From: a virus
IMG/VR virus record: IMGVR_UViG_3300031692_000004
Coordinates: 1 to 49,403 of that record
Strand: one strand, 5' to 3'
Length of the DNA stretch: 49,403 nucleotides
Made by a program: the position numbers and the translations under genes. The notes beneath the pieces are model-generated. The model was not told the DNA's origin, searched no databases, and saw only the letters and a list, made by a program, of their open reading frames with translations. Shown here piece by piece: positions 43,694 through 48,490 of the stretch (the stretch's first letter is position 1; every line of letters starts with the position of its first letter).

Positions 43694-43722
43694 TTGACAA
43701 TTAGTGACAATGTGACTATTAT
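43694..43722 (+). promoter_or_regulatory. Main rightward sigma-70 promoter
   Basis: TTGACA (43694-43699), 17 bases, TATTAT (43717-43722). The spacer holds GTGACAATGTGAC, two copies of the half-site seen at 43349-43365, so the same regulator may bind. Transcription would start near 43729, just ahead of the first early gene. Confidence 0.88.
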
Positions 43723-43775
43723 ATGGCATGGAGACAATAAAAATGGACAACAAATCTTTTAAACAGGAGAATGCA

Positions 43776-44039
43776 ATGGAATTCACAAAAGAACACGTTG
43801 AGCAGTTAGAGGGATATATTAAACAGTGGTTTAAATATAACTTGGTTGACAAAAAACATTCATTCAAGGTTTTTAAGGATATATATAAGGACCGGCCTAT
43901 AAAGAATTGGGACCTTTCATGGAAGTGGAAAATATTCTTTTGTAGTGGAGTAACAAAGGATATTGATTTTTACAAACTTGGGTATAATGATGATCATATC
44001 ACAACGGCGTTAAATCATATTTTTAAATCTATAGATTAA
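43776..44039 (+). CDS. First early-operon gene, 87 aa, unknown
   Basis: The frame is open from 43728, but that ATG coincides with the transcription start; the ATG at 43776, seven bases after AGGAG, is the sensible start. The product has mixed helices with many aromatic and basic residues (KNWDLSWKWKIFF). No family is recognised. Early position right behind a strong promoter suggests a host-takeover or regulatory role. Confidence 0.65.
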   Translation: MEFTKEHVEQLEGYIKQWFKYNLVDKKHSFKVFKDIYKDRPIKNWDLSWKWKIFFCSGVTKDIDFYKLGYNDDHITTALNHIFKSID

Positions 44040-44049
44040 GGGGTATAAA

Positions 44050-44298
44050 ATGGAACATACATTGAAACTAACAGAAGCAAGACAAGCACTAAAGCAAGGC
44101 ATTGACATTGTACTTGAATGCAAATATTGGGAAAGACGGGAAAGTCATGTATTTGAAGCGGAATACTATGGATCAAATGAAAGAGAAGCAGATTTTAATC
44201 ATAGAGTAAAATGTATTAAGGATGATTTTAAGGATATATCGACGTTTTACGGGGGGAATAAATCAGACTGCAAATTCACATTTAACACTATTTTATAA
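44050..44298 (+). CDS. Early-operon protein, 82 aa, unknown
   Basis: Starts at ATG 44050 after AAGGGG. The chain begins with LTEARQALKQGIDIVLECKYWERR and is rich in charged and aromatic residues. No motif recognised. Ten bases after the preceding gene, in one transcription unit. Confidence 0.65.
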   Translation: MEHTLKLTEARQALKQGIDIVLECKYWERRESHVFEAEYYGSNEREADFNHRVKCIKDDFKDISTFYGGNKSDCKFTFNTIL

Positions 44299-44308
44299 GG
44301 GGTTTACA

Positions 44309-44635
44309 ATGGAAACAAGCGGAAAATTAACAATTGATTACGGGCTGTCAGTGAACGGTGCACCTATGATATATGATACTGAACAGGGTATCTACGTTGC
44401 TGAAATCCTGAACATGGGAAACGATGTCAACCAATGCAACGATGAGCAAGCAATGTCCTATGCAAAGCTATTTGCTGCAGCACCCGACCTTCTGGAAGCG
44501 CTAAAGATGGCATCAGAGCATATTGCAGGCGGTATTGTTGAGCCGGATTCTGCTCATATGTTTACATATCAAGAGCAAAAAGCATACGTTCAGGGTATTA
44601 TTATCGATGCAATCAATAAATCAAGAGGTGAATAA
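44309..44635 (+). CDS. Phage protein with AAAPDLLEAL motif, 108 aa
   Basis: The true start is ATG 44309, behind TAAGGGG; the long upstream frame overlaps the previous gene and is ignored. The segment YAKLFAAAPDLLEALK is a phrase widespread in small phage proteins of unknown function, where it forms a short helix pair. The N-terminal half is beta-like (GKLTIDYGLSVNGAPMIYD). Likely an accessory early protein. Confidence 0.7.
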   Translation: METSGKLTIDYGLSVNGAPMIYDTEQGIYVAEILNMGNDVNQCNDEQAMSYAKLFAAAPDLLEALKMASEHIAGGIVEPDSAHMFTYQEQKAYVQGIIIDAINKSRGE

Positions 44636-44782
44636 ATGAGCACGCACGAAAGACACCGTATTAAAACCCTGCATATGGCCTTGCTGCAAGCCATTGACCG
44701 CAGGGACAAAGAAGCTAAGCGGATGATCAAAAGCATATTGGACAGATTACAATTTAGAAACATTTATAAAGGGGTAAAATAA
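44636..44782 (+). CDS. 48-aa basic helical protein
   Basis: ATG 44636 follows the upstream stop directly and has GAGGTG at good spacing; its TAA overlaps the next ATG as TAATG. The chain is strongly basic and predicted helical (KEAKRMIKSILDRLQF). Function unknown; coupling at both ends supports it being translated. Confidence 0.6.
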   Translation: MSTHERHRIKTLHMALLQAIDRRDKEAKRMIKSILDRLQFRNIYKGVK

Positions 44783-45690
44783 TGGAAAAACATAAATATT
44801 ATGAATTGGCAGTACAGGCTTTCAGCGGAACGAGCTTTTCACCAGAAAAACGAGCTGAATCCTACTGTGCCGACCATGATCAGAGAAAACAGGAGTTTAT
44901 AGACTGGCTTAATGATCTCGAAACGGATATTGACAAAGAAGCGGAAATTGAACGGTTTAAGGCAAATATTGATAACGCTTTCAACGCTTATCTCGGAGCT
45001 CACAGCCGGGTTATGTCAACAATGATAACGGGGCCGGCAAATTTCCCTGTAAACTCAAACAGGAAAAGGGGAGATACAGCAGACCGAAGAATGAGCGAAT
45101 ATCTGGAATGCACACAAAAGGCAAAAGATAGTATTATGAAACGTGTACGAAAGGAACAGATTGAAAATGCCGGGGGAGAACTGGAGATCAACAAAAAGAA
45201 ACTTGAAGGACTTGTCAAGCTCCAGGAGGCAATGAAAAAGGCAAACAGTATAATCAGGAAAGCCCCGAAGTATAAAAGAACAGATGAAAAAATAGAGGCG
45301 CTTGTATCTGCCGGGTTTAAACCGGATCAGGCAGAAAAGCTGTTTACTCCTGACTGTCTCGGGGGAATTGGATTCCACGGTTTCCAGTTGACAAATAATA
45401 ACGCAAAAATCAAAAATACAGAACAGCGGATCCGGGTACTTGAAGCGAGAGAGAACGCAGAGACAACAGAAACAGAGATCAACGGTATAAAGATCGTAGA
45501 GAACACCGAAATAGAGCGCATGCAGCTTATATTTGACGGAAAGCCGGAATATAACATCAGAGAAGAGCTTAAGCGGAACGGCTTTAAGTGGTCACCGCGT
45601 GAGGGAGCATGGCAGAGGAAACTAACAAATAATGCCAGGTGGACGGTCAAACGGGATCTTTCCTTTTTACAAACACAGGAGGTTAAATAA
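44782..45690 (+). CDS. LPD/DUF3560-like early protein, 302 aa
   Basis: The largest gene of the early operon. Residues 1-130 are helical and charged; 130-175 contain a coiled coil; 185-215 have a GFKPDQAEKLF turn with a FHGFQLTNNNAKIKNTEQRI helix. The C-terminal 60 residues (KPEYNIREELKRNGFKWSPREGAWQR, then LTNNARW) match a motif common in polyvalent and antirestriction-type proteins of phages and plasmids. A host-interaction or DNA-protection role is plausible. Start ATG 44782 with AAGGGG. Confidence 0.65.
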   Translation: MEKHKYYELAVQAFSGTSFSPEKRAESYCADHDQRKQEFIDWLNDLETDIDKEAEIERFKANIDNAFNAYLGAHSRVMSTMITGPANFPVNSNRKRGDTADRRMSEYLECTQKAKDSIMKRVRKEQIENAGGELEINKKKLEGLVKLQEAMKKANSIIRKAPKYKRTDEKIEALVSAGFKPDQAEKLFTPDCLGGIGFHGFQLTNNNAKIKNTEQRIRVLEARENAETTETEINGIKIVENTEIERMQLIFDGKPEYNIREELKRNGFKWSPREGAWQRKLTNNARWTVKRDLSFLQTQEVK

Positions 45691-45839
45691 TGGAAACAGC
45701 CTGAACCCCTTACCTGTGCCCCTTGCACGTGGAGGGGCATTGTAAGACGGTTTTGATGTCAAACCAAGCCCGGCAAAGTCCCAATTAAGGACAATAGGCC
45801 GGTATATTGAAAGGAAAAACCATGAAACATTCGGACTAA
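45690..45839 (+). other. Structured non-coding gap ahead of the ribozyme
   Basis: After the stop at 45690 a strong ribosome site (GGAGGTTAAATAATG) leads only to Met-Glu-Thr-Ala and a stop. Then come three hairpins: TGCCCCT/AGGGGCA (45717-45739), GGTTT/AAACC (45749-45765), and a two-tier hairpin CCGGC-AAA-GTCC/GGAC-GCCGG (45770-45802). No frame of useful length is seen. The stretch is continuous with the hammerhead and may be one RNA domain; it may also mark a lost gene. Confidence 0.65.
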
Positions 45840-45905
45840 AGATCCGAAACACCGGGGACATTAAAACCCGGTGTCTGCTGACTGTATCAGCACTGATGAG
45901 GATTT
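45840..45905 (+). ncRNA. Type II hammerhead ribozyme
   Basis: All invariant parts are present in order. Stem II 3' arm AGATCC (45840-45845), GAA (45846-45848), stem III ACACCGGG/CCCGGTGT (45849-45856 with 45867-45874, 8 bp), cleavage nucleotide C45875 in GUC, stem I TGCTGA/TCAGCA (45876-45881 with 45887-45892, 6 bp, loop CTGTA), core CTGATGA (45893-45899), stem II 5' arm GGATTT (45900-45905). Stem II is the open one, making type II. Cutting would leave a 2',3'-cyclic phosphate at 45875 and a 5'-OH at 45876, splitting the early mRNA 57 bases before the next gene. Confidence 0.92.
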
Positions 45906-45932
45906 GATAACTATTTTATAAAGGGTAAGAAT

Positions 45933-46241
45933 ATGAAAAAGTTTAAAATGAAAAAAGGCTGCTTTTATAGCCTTGCAAGAGTAAGCGGTGATGTGGTGTT
46001 TGTATTAAGGGAAGGATATTATTTTAAACAATTCGGAATATATAAAGAATCTTCCAGATGGTATCATATAATACATATACCAACCGGTATGGCCGTTTGC
46101 CCGGGGGAATCGTTACTGGCCAATGCGAAGAGGATAGTGCATGCCTTATCCAAAATAGACATTGACTGGACAAACACAAATATGGCAGGGTATGCCCAAT
46201 ACGGAACAATAATCCGTGACGCAATACGGGAAAAGGAATAG
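45933..46241 (+). CDS. Early-operon protein downstream of the ribozyme, 102 aa
   Basis: ATG 45933 follows AAAGGG and the recurring AACTATTTTATAAAGGG leader. The product starts with a basic patch (MKKFKMKKG), then a compact beta-like region (FYSLARVSGDVVFVL) and a helical C-terminus. If the hammerhead acts, its mRNA would carry a 5'-OH end and the stem I hairpin at its 5' terminus. Function unknown. Confidence 0.65.
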   Translation: MKKFKMKKGCFYSLARVSGDVVFVLREGYYFKQFGIYKESSRWYHIIHIPTGMAVCPGESLLANAKRIVHALSKIDIDWTNTNMAGYAQYGTIIRDAIREKE

Positions 46242-46274
46242 GCCGTTTAACTATTTTATACAAGGAGAGAAAGA

Positions 46275-46535
46275 GTGAAAAACTACGAATCAAAAGACCT
46301 TAATTTTGCATTGGATGGGGATATCCTCGACGGGGAACTGATCACCATATCCAACGAATCAACGTATGAACGGGTAAGGAGTGAAATTGAGGATGATCCT
46401 GATGTGGCCTGCTGGGATGATGAGATCTTCCACTATGTCCCGGATGAGGTCTTCGAAAAAGAGGATGAAAAGATCAACGAGTGGCTGGTTAAAGAGCTTT
46501 TTAATGAGTTTGAAGCGGGAGGGAGTTTAAGATGA
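46275..46535 (+). CDS. Acidic early protein, 86 aa; GTG start
   Basis: GTG 46275-46277 after AAGGAGAGAAAGA. About a third of residues are Asp/Glu (EIEDDPDVACWDDEIF), net strongly negative, a property of DNA-mimic and anti-restriction proteins, but no such family is recognised. It overlaps the next gene by four bases (ATGA). Confidence 0.6.
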   Translation: MKNYESKDLNFALDGDILDGELITISNESTYERVRSEIEDDPDVACWDDEIFHYVPDEVFEKEDEKINEWLVKELFNEFEAGGSLR

Positions 46536-46846
46536 ACACAAAAACAGATAAAAAAAGAGTCACAATCCCTGATTGCCGGGACTATCAAAAGATCATAGAT
46601 ACTCACATCCCCAAGACCAGGAGCATGTTAAAAATGAGTCACAAGCTGGCCTACACAGACACCATAACCAACGGGGAAATGGAGCTGACAGTCGCGCAGC
46701 AGTTCGGGGCTATTGTAACAATGAAAAAGGTTGAGAACATTGCCGAACGATTCCCCCGCCTGCAATGGGGAGTCCTGACAGAAGGGAAATGGTACGAACG
46801 TAATTCAATAGGAGAATGGGAGGAGGTAAGCAATGAAACACTTTAA
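46532..46846 (+). CDS. Early-operon protein, 104 aa, unknown
   Basis: Starts at the ATGA overlap. Mixed helical and beta composition with a central GEMELTVAQQFGAIVTMKKVENI and a C-terminal WYERNSIGEWEEV strand pair. No family. GGAGGGAGTTTAAG precedes the start. Confidence 0.6.
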   Translation: MNTKTDKKRVTIPDCRDYQKIIDTHIPKTRSMLKMSHKLAYTDTITNGEMELTVAQQFGAIVTMKKVENIAERFPRLQWGVLTEGKWYERNSIGEWEEVSNETL

Positions 46847-47093
46847 ACGGCTGTATCTGGCAATAGAGGAGGAGATGCTCGGGGAGTCCAAGCCTGAGTA
46901 TAATCTGGTTGATAATAATATGAATATTGTTGCAAGGGCGGTAAGCCTGGAACATCTGCTTTTTCTACAAAAGGCCGGCAACAATTTCGAGAGGATGAAA
47001 GCTTTGATTGAACGGTTTAAAGACGCTATGAACATGGAGGACGAGGCTTTGTGGGCTGACGCAGAAAAACTTTTAAAGGAGCTTGAGAAATGA
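46833..47093 (+). CDS. Helical early-operon protein, 86 aa
   Basis: Starts at ATG 46833 behind GGGAGGAGGTAAGCA and overlaps the previous gene by 14 bases. Mostly helix; the C-terminal 30 residues are acidic helix (EDEALWADAEKLLKELEK). No family recognised. Confidence 0.6.
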   Translation: MKHFKRLYLAIEEEMLGESKPEYNLVDNNMNIVARAVSLEHLLFLQKAGNNFERMKALIERFKDAMNMEDEALWADAEKLLKELEK

Positions 47094-47200
47094 CCACATT
47101 CATAGTTCTGGCAATAGTCCTGATCGTATGGGGGCTGGGCTGTCTGATTGTTGATAACTGGAAAAGTATTGTAAACTATTTATTTGAAAGGATGAGGTAA
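47090..47200 (+). CDS. 36-aa single-pass membrane peptide
   Basis: ATGA overlap at its start and TAATG at its end. Residues about 3-22 (TFIVLAIVLIVWGLGCLIV) form a clear membrane helix, then a short basic tail. It could act on the host envelope, for instance in superinfection exclusion, but nothing proves it. Confidence 0.6.
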   Translation: MTTFIVLAIVLIVWGLGCLIVDNWKSIVNYLFERMR

Positions 47201-47613
47201 TGAAACTGATCGGATCATGGAAAACTGAAGAAAAAGCCCAATATACCAAACAGGTCCAGACCCATCTCGGCGAACTGGCCGACCAGGTTGATATGATAGT
47301 TGAAGAGCAAAGCCTTAAAAAGGGCTATGTCCTCCGCGACCTCTGGCAGTGGGTGCTGGATTCTGATCTTGAAGTAAGGATGATAAGCCTGCAGCGCGAT
47401 GTGAACGGAAGTGAGCGCCTGACCGCTGTAAGCGTTACTGAGGAGATGTTTAACACTATTGAGGAGGTAAGGGGAACAATCCCCCGCGGGACCTTCTTGC
47501 GGGCCATTACCGCAGCAGGGATCAAGGCTAAGAGAACGGAAGAGCAGAAGGAGCAGGACGCAAAGGACGCGGAAGAGGTCTGTTTTGCAGCTCGCGGAGA
47601 GGGAGGTGAGTGA
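47200..47613 (+). CDS. Early-operon protein, 137 aa, unknown
   Basis: The product is helical with a charged, Glu/Lys-rich C-terminal third (KRTEEQKEQDAKDAEEV). The middle (LRDLWQWVLDSDLEVRMISLQRD) could pack as a small helical domain. It lies directly upstream of the serine recombinase (TGATG overlap), so it may be an accessory factor for it. Unknown. Confidence 0.6.
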   Translation: MKLIGSWKTEEKAQYTKQVQTHLGELADQVDMIVEEQSLKKGYVLRDLWQWVLDSDLEVRMISLQRDVNGSERLTAVSVTEEMFNTIEEVRGTIPRGTFLRAITAAGIKAKRTEEQKEQDAKDAEEVCFAARGEGGE

Positions 47614-48290
47614 TGTCACAAGCAATAATCTACACAAGATTCTCACCACAGCGAAACGCCGATGAATCGGACTCCTGCGAGATCCAGGAGGGGATCTGCA
47701 GAACGTACGCCGACAATAACGGGCATAAGGTGATTGACGTATTCAATGACGCGGACGTGTCCGGGAAGGACGAATACAGAGAAAAACTCTGGCAGGCCAT
47801 AGAGAGCCTGCCGAGGGGAGGCGTTCTGATCGTTTTTAAGCGTGATCGGCTCGCGCGCAACGTCTTCCTTGCGGAGCAGATAAACCGGGCTGTTGGGGCA
47901 AGGGGCGCATCCATAGAGGCCGTTACAGGGGATGTGGCCGGTAATGGTCCTGAGCAGGTCATGATCCGCCAGGTCTTGGCTTCCATAGCTGAATATGAAC
48001 GCAAATTGATAGCAATGCGCACATCGTGGGCAATGAAGCAGCACCAGAAGTCCGGTAAGCGCATGGGGAGATACGCTCCTTATGGTTATGAGATCGACCC
48101 GGACGACCCCTCGCTGCTGATTGAGCATGAGCGGGAGCAGAAGGCCTTGAATGTAATAGCCGAGCTTTTGCACACCAACAAGATGAGTGTTACTAAAATT
48201 ATGGAGTATATGAATGTGAATATGGCAGATTATGCCAGAGCCGGGCGATGGAACTCAAAGGTGATTCGGAAGATTATTGAAAGGGCGTGA
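47613..48290 (+). CDS. Serine recombinase (resolvase/invertase family), 225 aa
   Basis: The N-terminal catalytic domain has YTRFSPQRN with the expected nucleophile serine near residue 11, DADVSGKDEYREKLWQAI, FKRDRLARN with the conserved arginines, and the long helix with EYERKLIAMRT. The C-terminal 70 residues (GRYAPYGYEIDPDD, NSKVIRKII) resemble the recombinase domain of larger serine integrases, but the zinc ribbon and coiled coil are absent. It could integrate the phage, invert a segment or resolve dimers. ATG 47613 overlaps the upstream stop as TGATG. Confidence 0.85.
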   Translation: MSQAIIYTRFSPQRNADESDSCEIQEGICRTYADNNGHKVIDVFNDADVSGKDEYREKLWQAIESLPRGGVLIVFKRDRLARNVFLAEQINRAVGARGASIEAVTGDVAGNGPEQVMIRQVLASIAEYERKLIAMRTSWAMKQHQKSGKRMGRYAPYGYEIDPDDPSLLIEHEREQKALNVIAELLHTNKMSVTKIMEYMNVNMADYARAGRWNSKVIRKIIERA

Positions 48291-48292
48291 GG

Positions 48293-48490
48293 ATGTCTAA
48301 TAAGGGTAAAAAGAAGTGTCCTAAATGCCAAAAGTTCAGAGATATTATATTTGACTTTGGAGATGAAGGCGAAAGGGTGTGTCCATTATGTTATTTGACT
48401 GTGCCGTGCAAAGACTCCGTTCCAAAGGACATGTTTGTTGTTATGGAGCTAAAGCATCCTGACATGGATGGAAAAAAGACAATCTATTGA
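48293..48490 (+). CDS. Zinc-ribbon protein, 65 aa
   Basis: Two CxxC pairs (CPKC ... CPLC) about 25 residues apart form a zinc ribbon, followed by about 30 residues of mixed structure. It begins three bases after the recombinase stop; a GTG two codons earlier is an alternative start. Since the recombinase lacks its own ribbon, this could be a partner or a split-off domain, but it may be unrelated. Confidence 0.65.
   Translation: MSNKGKKKCPKCQKFRDIIFDFGDEGERVCPLCYLTVPCKDSVPKDMFVVMELKHPDMDGKKTIY

Follow-up and report, generated by a model that had tools for sequence, protein, structure and literature searches.

Type II hammerhead ribozymes have been found flanking prophage genes, and their cleavage has been shown both in vitro and in E. 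coli; clustered hammerheads were cleaved in vitro, and one cluster also in E. coli (PMC3088659). In a halovirus, a hammerhead is located 13 nt before a helicase gene, and its cut coincides with a mapped mRNA 5' end (PMC3088659). Splitting of operon messages was proposed for such elements by Perreault et al. 2011 (PMC3088659). The majority of the members of the published type II consensus have a pseudoknot between loop I and the tail, which is not a condition of membership, and many hammerheads are without one (PMC3088659). In the published in vitro test, 4 of 18 consensus-matching hammerheads were not cleaved (PMC3088659). What this kind of self-cutting RNA is for in bacteria and phages has been a question since 2011.

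Here we describe a hammerhead at positions 45840-45905 (+ strand) of the IMG/VR virus record IMGVR_UViG_3300031692_000004, which was analysed over its whole length of 49,403 nucleotides (the window). The element is a well-formed new example of the kind known from phages (Perreault 2011) and not a new kind. As judged from its sequence, this RNA between two phage genes very probably cuts itself, thereby splitting one long message in two.

Architecture of the element

All parts of a type II hammerhead were found by direct reading of 45840-45905. Stem II, the open helix, is formed by AGATCC (45840-45845) and GGATTT (45900-45905), which pair over 6 bp including one G-U; both strands also match the model of the sub-form described below. 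The 5' strand is followed by the core GAA (45846-45848) and by the stem III hairpin (45849-45874), in which ACACCGGG (45849-45856) and CCCGGTGT (45867-45874) form 8 bp around a 10-nt loop, as is also seen in the predicted fold. The C of the GUC triplet is at 45875, and from the established hammerhead mechanism the cut is placed after C45875. The stem I hairpin (45876-45892; 17 nt) consists of TGCTGA (45876-45881) and TCAGCA (45887-45892), which form 6 bp closed by the loop CUGUA, and its length is that of the 17-nt sub-form. The second core segment, CUGAUGA (CTGATGA in the DNA), occupies 45893-45899; like the GAA, it is invariant in 46 relatives. The element thus has the order GAA, NUH, CUGAUGA that defines type II, with an open stem II, terminal loops on stems I and III, and helices of 6, 6 and 8 bp for stems I, II and III. 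The coordinates, the stem lengths and the single wobble pair given in the original prediction were correct to the base. Its description of the element as a consensus type II hammerhead calls for a qualification, as the published consensus includes a pseudoknot between loop I and the tail; 45840-45905 offers only weak 4-bp options for this pairing, which is typical of the sub-form with a 17-nt stem I hairpin to which the element belongs.

Specificity of the match

The frequency of such a motif by chance was assessed with a loose type II descriptor (stems of at least 2/4/4), applied to both strands of the window and to 300 randomised windows. The element at 45840-45905 was the sole type II match on both strands of the window, and one match was obtained in the 300 randomised windows. 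A strict descriptor covering all three hammerhead types also returned 45840-45905 only, with 0 matches in 20 randomised windows. A chance origin of the match is excluded by these data. No second hammerhead of any type was found in the window with the descriptors or with the sub-form covariance model.

An Infernal search with the Rfam hammerhead II model had been named as a check in the original prediction, and its outcome was mixed. The model (RF02276, Hammerhead_II) does match 45840-45905, with 30.3 bits and E-values of 2.5e-4 (401-nt stretch) and 7.1e-6 (whole record), but this is under its gathering score of 37. At the gathering threshold no Rfam family matched in the window, and with lax thresholds the rest of the whole window gave chance-level matches only. 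A covariance model of the sub-form (R1) was derived from an alignment of 46 further phage hammerheads that come from IMG/VR contigs and have a stem I hairpin of 17 nt; the window's own motif was left out. With this model 45840-45905 scored 46.4 bits (E 1.6e-11, filters off), the next-best place in the window reaching 10.7 bits. Relatives for which R1 gives scores of up to 70 bits are near 30 bits or fail with RF02276; the low Rfam score is therefore a property of the sub-form. Strong pair covariation is present in the alignment of the 46 motifs, part of it by construction, as the aligned motifs were chosen for having stems. The scan pattern by which motifs were collected from IMG/VR fixed the core and a few adjacent bases only, and nearly all matches listed extend all three stems. 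Overall, the sequence, the chance test and two covariance models support the type II identity that had been predicted.

Two sub-forms of phage type II hammerheads

The scan of IMG/VR for the hammerhead core yielded at least 120 stretches, from which at least 190 distinct type II motifs were collected, the window's own included. Among the matches listed, two main sub-forms can be distinguished: one with a stem I hairpin of 21-24 nt, a stem II of 2-3 bp and the loop I-tail pseudoknot, and one with a stem I hairpin of 17 nt, a stem II of 4 bp and mostly no pseudoknot. The window's hammerhead belongs to the latter, in which loop I is mostly UNANG (among the matches listed). Many cases of the 17-nt sub-form among the matches listed fall under the Rfam cut-off, and the sub-form is probably under-annotated.

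Within the 17-nt sub-form the fourth pair of stem II covaries with the last base of loop I (Fisher p 3e-5 for 58 motifs, uncorrected for kinship). The window's motif has the rarer combination, a fourth pair A-U with a loop I ending in UA, and the same minor pattern occurs in four other contigs (L017, L081, L082 and L115) among the 58 motifs. A tertiary contact between loop I and stem II would fit this association.

Placement of the hammerheads in phage genomes

The position relative to genes was determined for the motifs collected. In 139 of 180 listed phage motifs, the stop codon of a long upstream frame lies 4-16 nt ahead of the GAA, as compared with 132 of 3,780 random sites; when one motif per locus is counted, the figure is 78 of 103 among the matches listed. 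On the other side, the first start codon that has a ribosome site follows the ribozyme core at a median of 27 nt, and the next start is within 60 nt for 87% of the motifs versus 24% of random positions (both among the matches listed). In the window, the corresponding distance from CUGAUGA to the start codon of the downstream gene is 33 nt.

Several contigs hold such hammerheads in series. In IMGVR_UViG_3300017605_000570:9000-18500 (L159, also L021), 24 type II hammerheads share one strand of a 7.6-kb stretch, so spaced that nearly every junction between small genes has one, and all 24 exceed the RF02276 cut-off; such an operon would cut itself into single-gene messages. With the 17-nt model, 11 hammerheads were found in IMGVR_UViG_3300036832_000364 (L160), 8 in IMGVR_UViG_3300047160_000799 (L161) and 9 in the contig of L108. 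In the three contigs that were mapped against predicted genes (L159, L160 and L161), nearly every gene junction holds a hammerhead, and in L160 and L161 most junctions do. The stop-to-start placement and the serial copies support, at the level of sequence, a splitting of long phage messages.

Genes around the element and search for relatives

The upstream gene (44782-45690, + strand) encodes 302 aa of the phage family phrog_19458, annotated as primase, and the downstream gene (45933-46241, + strand) encodes 102 aa of no known family, for which no known relatives were found. The downstream gene is preceded by a leader (45908-45931, + strand) consisting of an AU-rich stretch and the Shine-Dalgarno sequence AAAGGG. 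Similar AU-rich leaders with a Shine-Dalgarno sequence (e.g. ACTATTTTATAxAAGG) stand before several + strand genes of the cluster, at 44287-44303, 44763-44781, 45908-45931 and 46248-46271. A promoter-like site (43694-43722) precedes the + strand genes in 43728-48490, and between 44556 and 45933 the + strand showed no terminator-like site; co-transcription of the genes on either side of the hammerhead is therefore likely. The + strand operon at 43728-48490 is a putative early one, although the replication genes are on the opposite strand.

Searches via the 102-aa gene, via the terminase, with patterns made from the ribozyme and spacer DNA, and with blastn in phages and plasmids returned no close relatives of the junction. 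Homologues of the 302-aa gene do occur in other phages, mostly without a recognised ribozyme nearby. The slot behind this gene was inspected in 12 + 19 loci with 302-aa homologues, some of which are from one contig or near-identical; RAGATH-5 was found in one locus and twister-P5 in one, and a degenerate hammerhead is present elsewhere in the twister-P5 contig (L126). A conserved ribozyme site after the 302-aa gene was rejected, as most of these loci are without a ribozyme; the hammerhead is therefore no constant part of this gene neighbourhood. In the Faecalibacterium phage FP_Toutatis (L129, MG711466.1), six RAGATH-5 RNAs lie between the genes of one operon; five of them start 4-7 nt after a stop codon, and one directly follows the 302-aa homologue.

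The upstream spacer and alternative explanations

The 302-aa gene and stem II are separated by 147 nt of structured non-coding DNA, a spacer (45690-45839, + strand) without an intact gene. Its gene-like start (AGGAGG, with an ATG at 45690) is similar to those of other genes of the cluster, and the frame from this ATG is the same as that of the stop at 45837 and is broken by three stops; agreement of the frame alone has a chance of one in three. The spacer is possibly the remnant of a decayed small gene. It folds better than shuffled sequences (z -3.6) and directly adjoins the ribozyme, by which its 3' end would be defined; the element might thus mainly release or mature a small RNA from the spacer rather than split an mRNA. 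This is very unlikely, as the spacer has no match in Rfam, as blastn and DNA patterns found no similar DNA in phages, plasmids and viral contigs, and as the sequence, with its gene-like start, may be what is left of a gene. The absence of matches also led us to reject a known RNA family or protein in the spacer. A decayed gene adjoining the element would in turn suit a relic or a chance hammerhead-like fold in which cleavage has been lost or is too slow to be of consequence, as would the score below the Rfam cut-off and the single copy for which no conserved neighbour was found. The core and all three stems are intact, however, and decay would soon break them; the randomised windows exclude chance, and the rule that relates loop I to stem II in the sub-form is kept. 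We regard a relic as highly improbable.

The 3' end of the spacer contains a five-codon frame, MKHSD* (45822-45839, + strand), with the Shine-Dalgarno-like sequence AAAGGA; its stop (45837) immediately precedes stem II, at the place where the stop of the upstream gene is found in other phages. It overlaps a predicted hairpin, UUCGGA/UCCGAA (45830-45848, + strand), that competes with stem II and covers the GAA. This hairpin is favoured by 1.7 kcal/mol (secondary-structure energy, in which tertiary contacts are not counted), is part of the minimum-energy fold and has a probability of 0.97 in the model. Because tertiary contacts are uncounted and the median gap of the competing folds in relatives is 6.0 kcal/mol, most of them exceeding the window's value (among the matches listed), the 1.7 kcal/mol does not argue against activity. 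The hairpin and the frame that ends just before stem II could point to a regulated cut, in which the hairpin holds off the GAA and the stem II strand until ribosomes on MKHSD*, or another factor, shift the balance. Competing hairpins with a probability above 0.9 are, however, found in about 10% of the other phage type II hammerheads among the matches listed, so that this one may be due to chance, and the general tendency of type II hammerheads to follow stop codons accounts for the position of the stop as well. A regulated cut is thus considered unlikely, and its specific form, a naturally switchable hammerhead in which translation of the five-codon leader decides via the upstream hairpin whether the message is cut, very unlikely.

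Proposed role of the hammerhead

The explanation that we favour, with a probability of about 0.86, is that a type II hammerhead in the intercistronic gap cuts itself after C45875 and thereby separates two phage messages. We infer the cleavage, from the known chemistry of hammerheads, as well as the fate of the pieces and the benefit to the phage, as follows. The nascent co-transcript would fold and cut itself after C45875. The primase-like gene would be left on an upstream piece that has the stem III hairpin at its 3' end and carries a 2',3'-cyclic phosphate there. On the downstream piece, which would hold the 102-aa gene and later genes, U45876 would be the first base, bearing a 5'-OH and opening the stem I hairpin; this new 5' end would lie 57 nt before the start codon of the 102-aa gene. 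The hairpins and the unusual ends may slow exonucleases and RNases that depend on a 5'-monophosphate, and a likely use would be separate messages, each with its own stability and translation. Against this reading count the RF02276 score under the gathering cut-off, the competing hairpin favoured by 1.7 kcal/mol, the lack of a strong loop I-tail pseudoknot, the lack of a close relative of the junction together with the mostly ribozyme-free surroundings of the 302-aa homologues, and the four uncleaved hammerheads in the published test (PMC3088659). The splitting of a co-transcript, as envisaged in the original prediction, is supported by analogy with the stop-to-start placement, with operons that hold a hammerhead at nearly each junction, and with the literature (PMC3088659).

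The element adds a clean phage example to those available. The comparative part outweighs this one copy: in phages, type II hammerheads take up the stretch from the stop codon of a gene to the ribosome site of the following gene, and there are phages with nearly one hammerhead per gene over many genes. This placement and copy number make the splitting of operons directly testable by mapping of 5'-OH ends.

Comparison with known systems

The RAGATH-5 (L129) and Twister-P5 (L126) elements are ribozymes listed in Rfam that are present in an operon holding a 302-aa homologue, but they belong to other RNA classes than the window's hammerhead. With the 17-nt sub-form (46 aligned motifs) the element shares the length of the stem I hairpin, the core and the absence of a strong pseudoknot. 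It differs from it in that its loop, CUGUA, begins with C, which is unseen among the 58 motifs compared, in that its stem II can extend to 6 bp, and in that its upstream gene is 147 nt off, whereas elsewhere the gene ends at stem II. In comparison with Hammerhead_II (RF02276), the element has a stem I hairpin of 17 nt that includes a loop of 5 nt, a 6-bp stem II and no loop I-tail pseudoknot, but the two have in common the order of the parts, the open stem II, the hairpins on stems I and III, the core, the GUC cut site and the intergenic position in phages.
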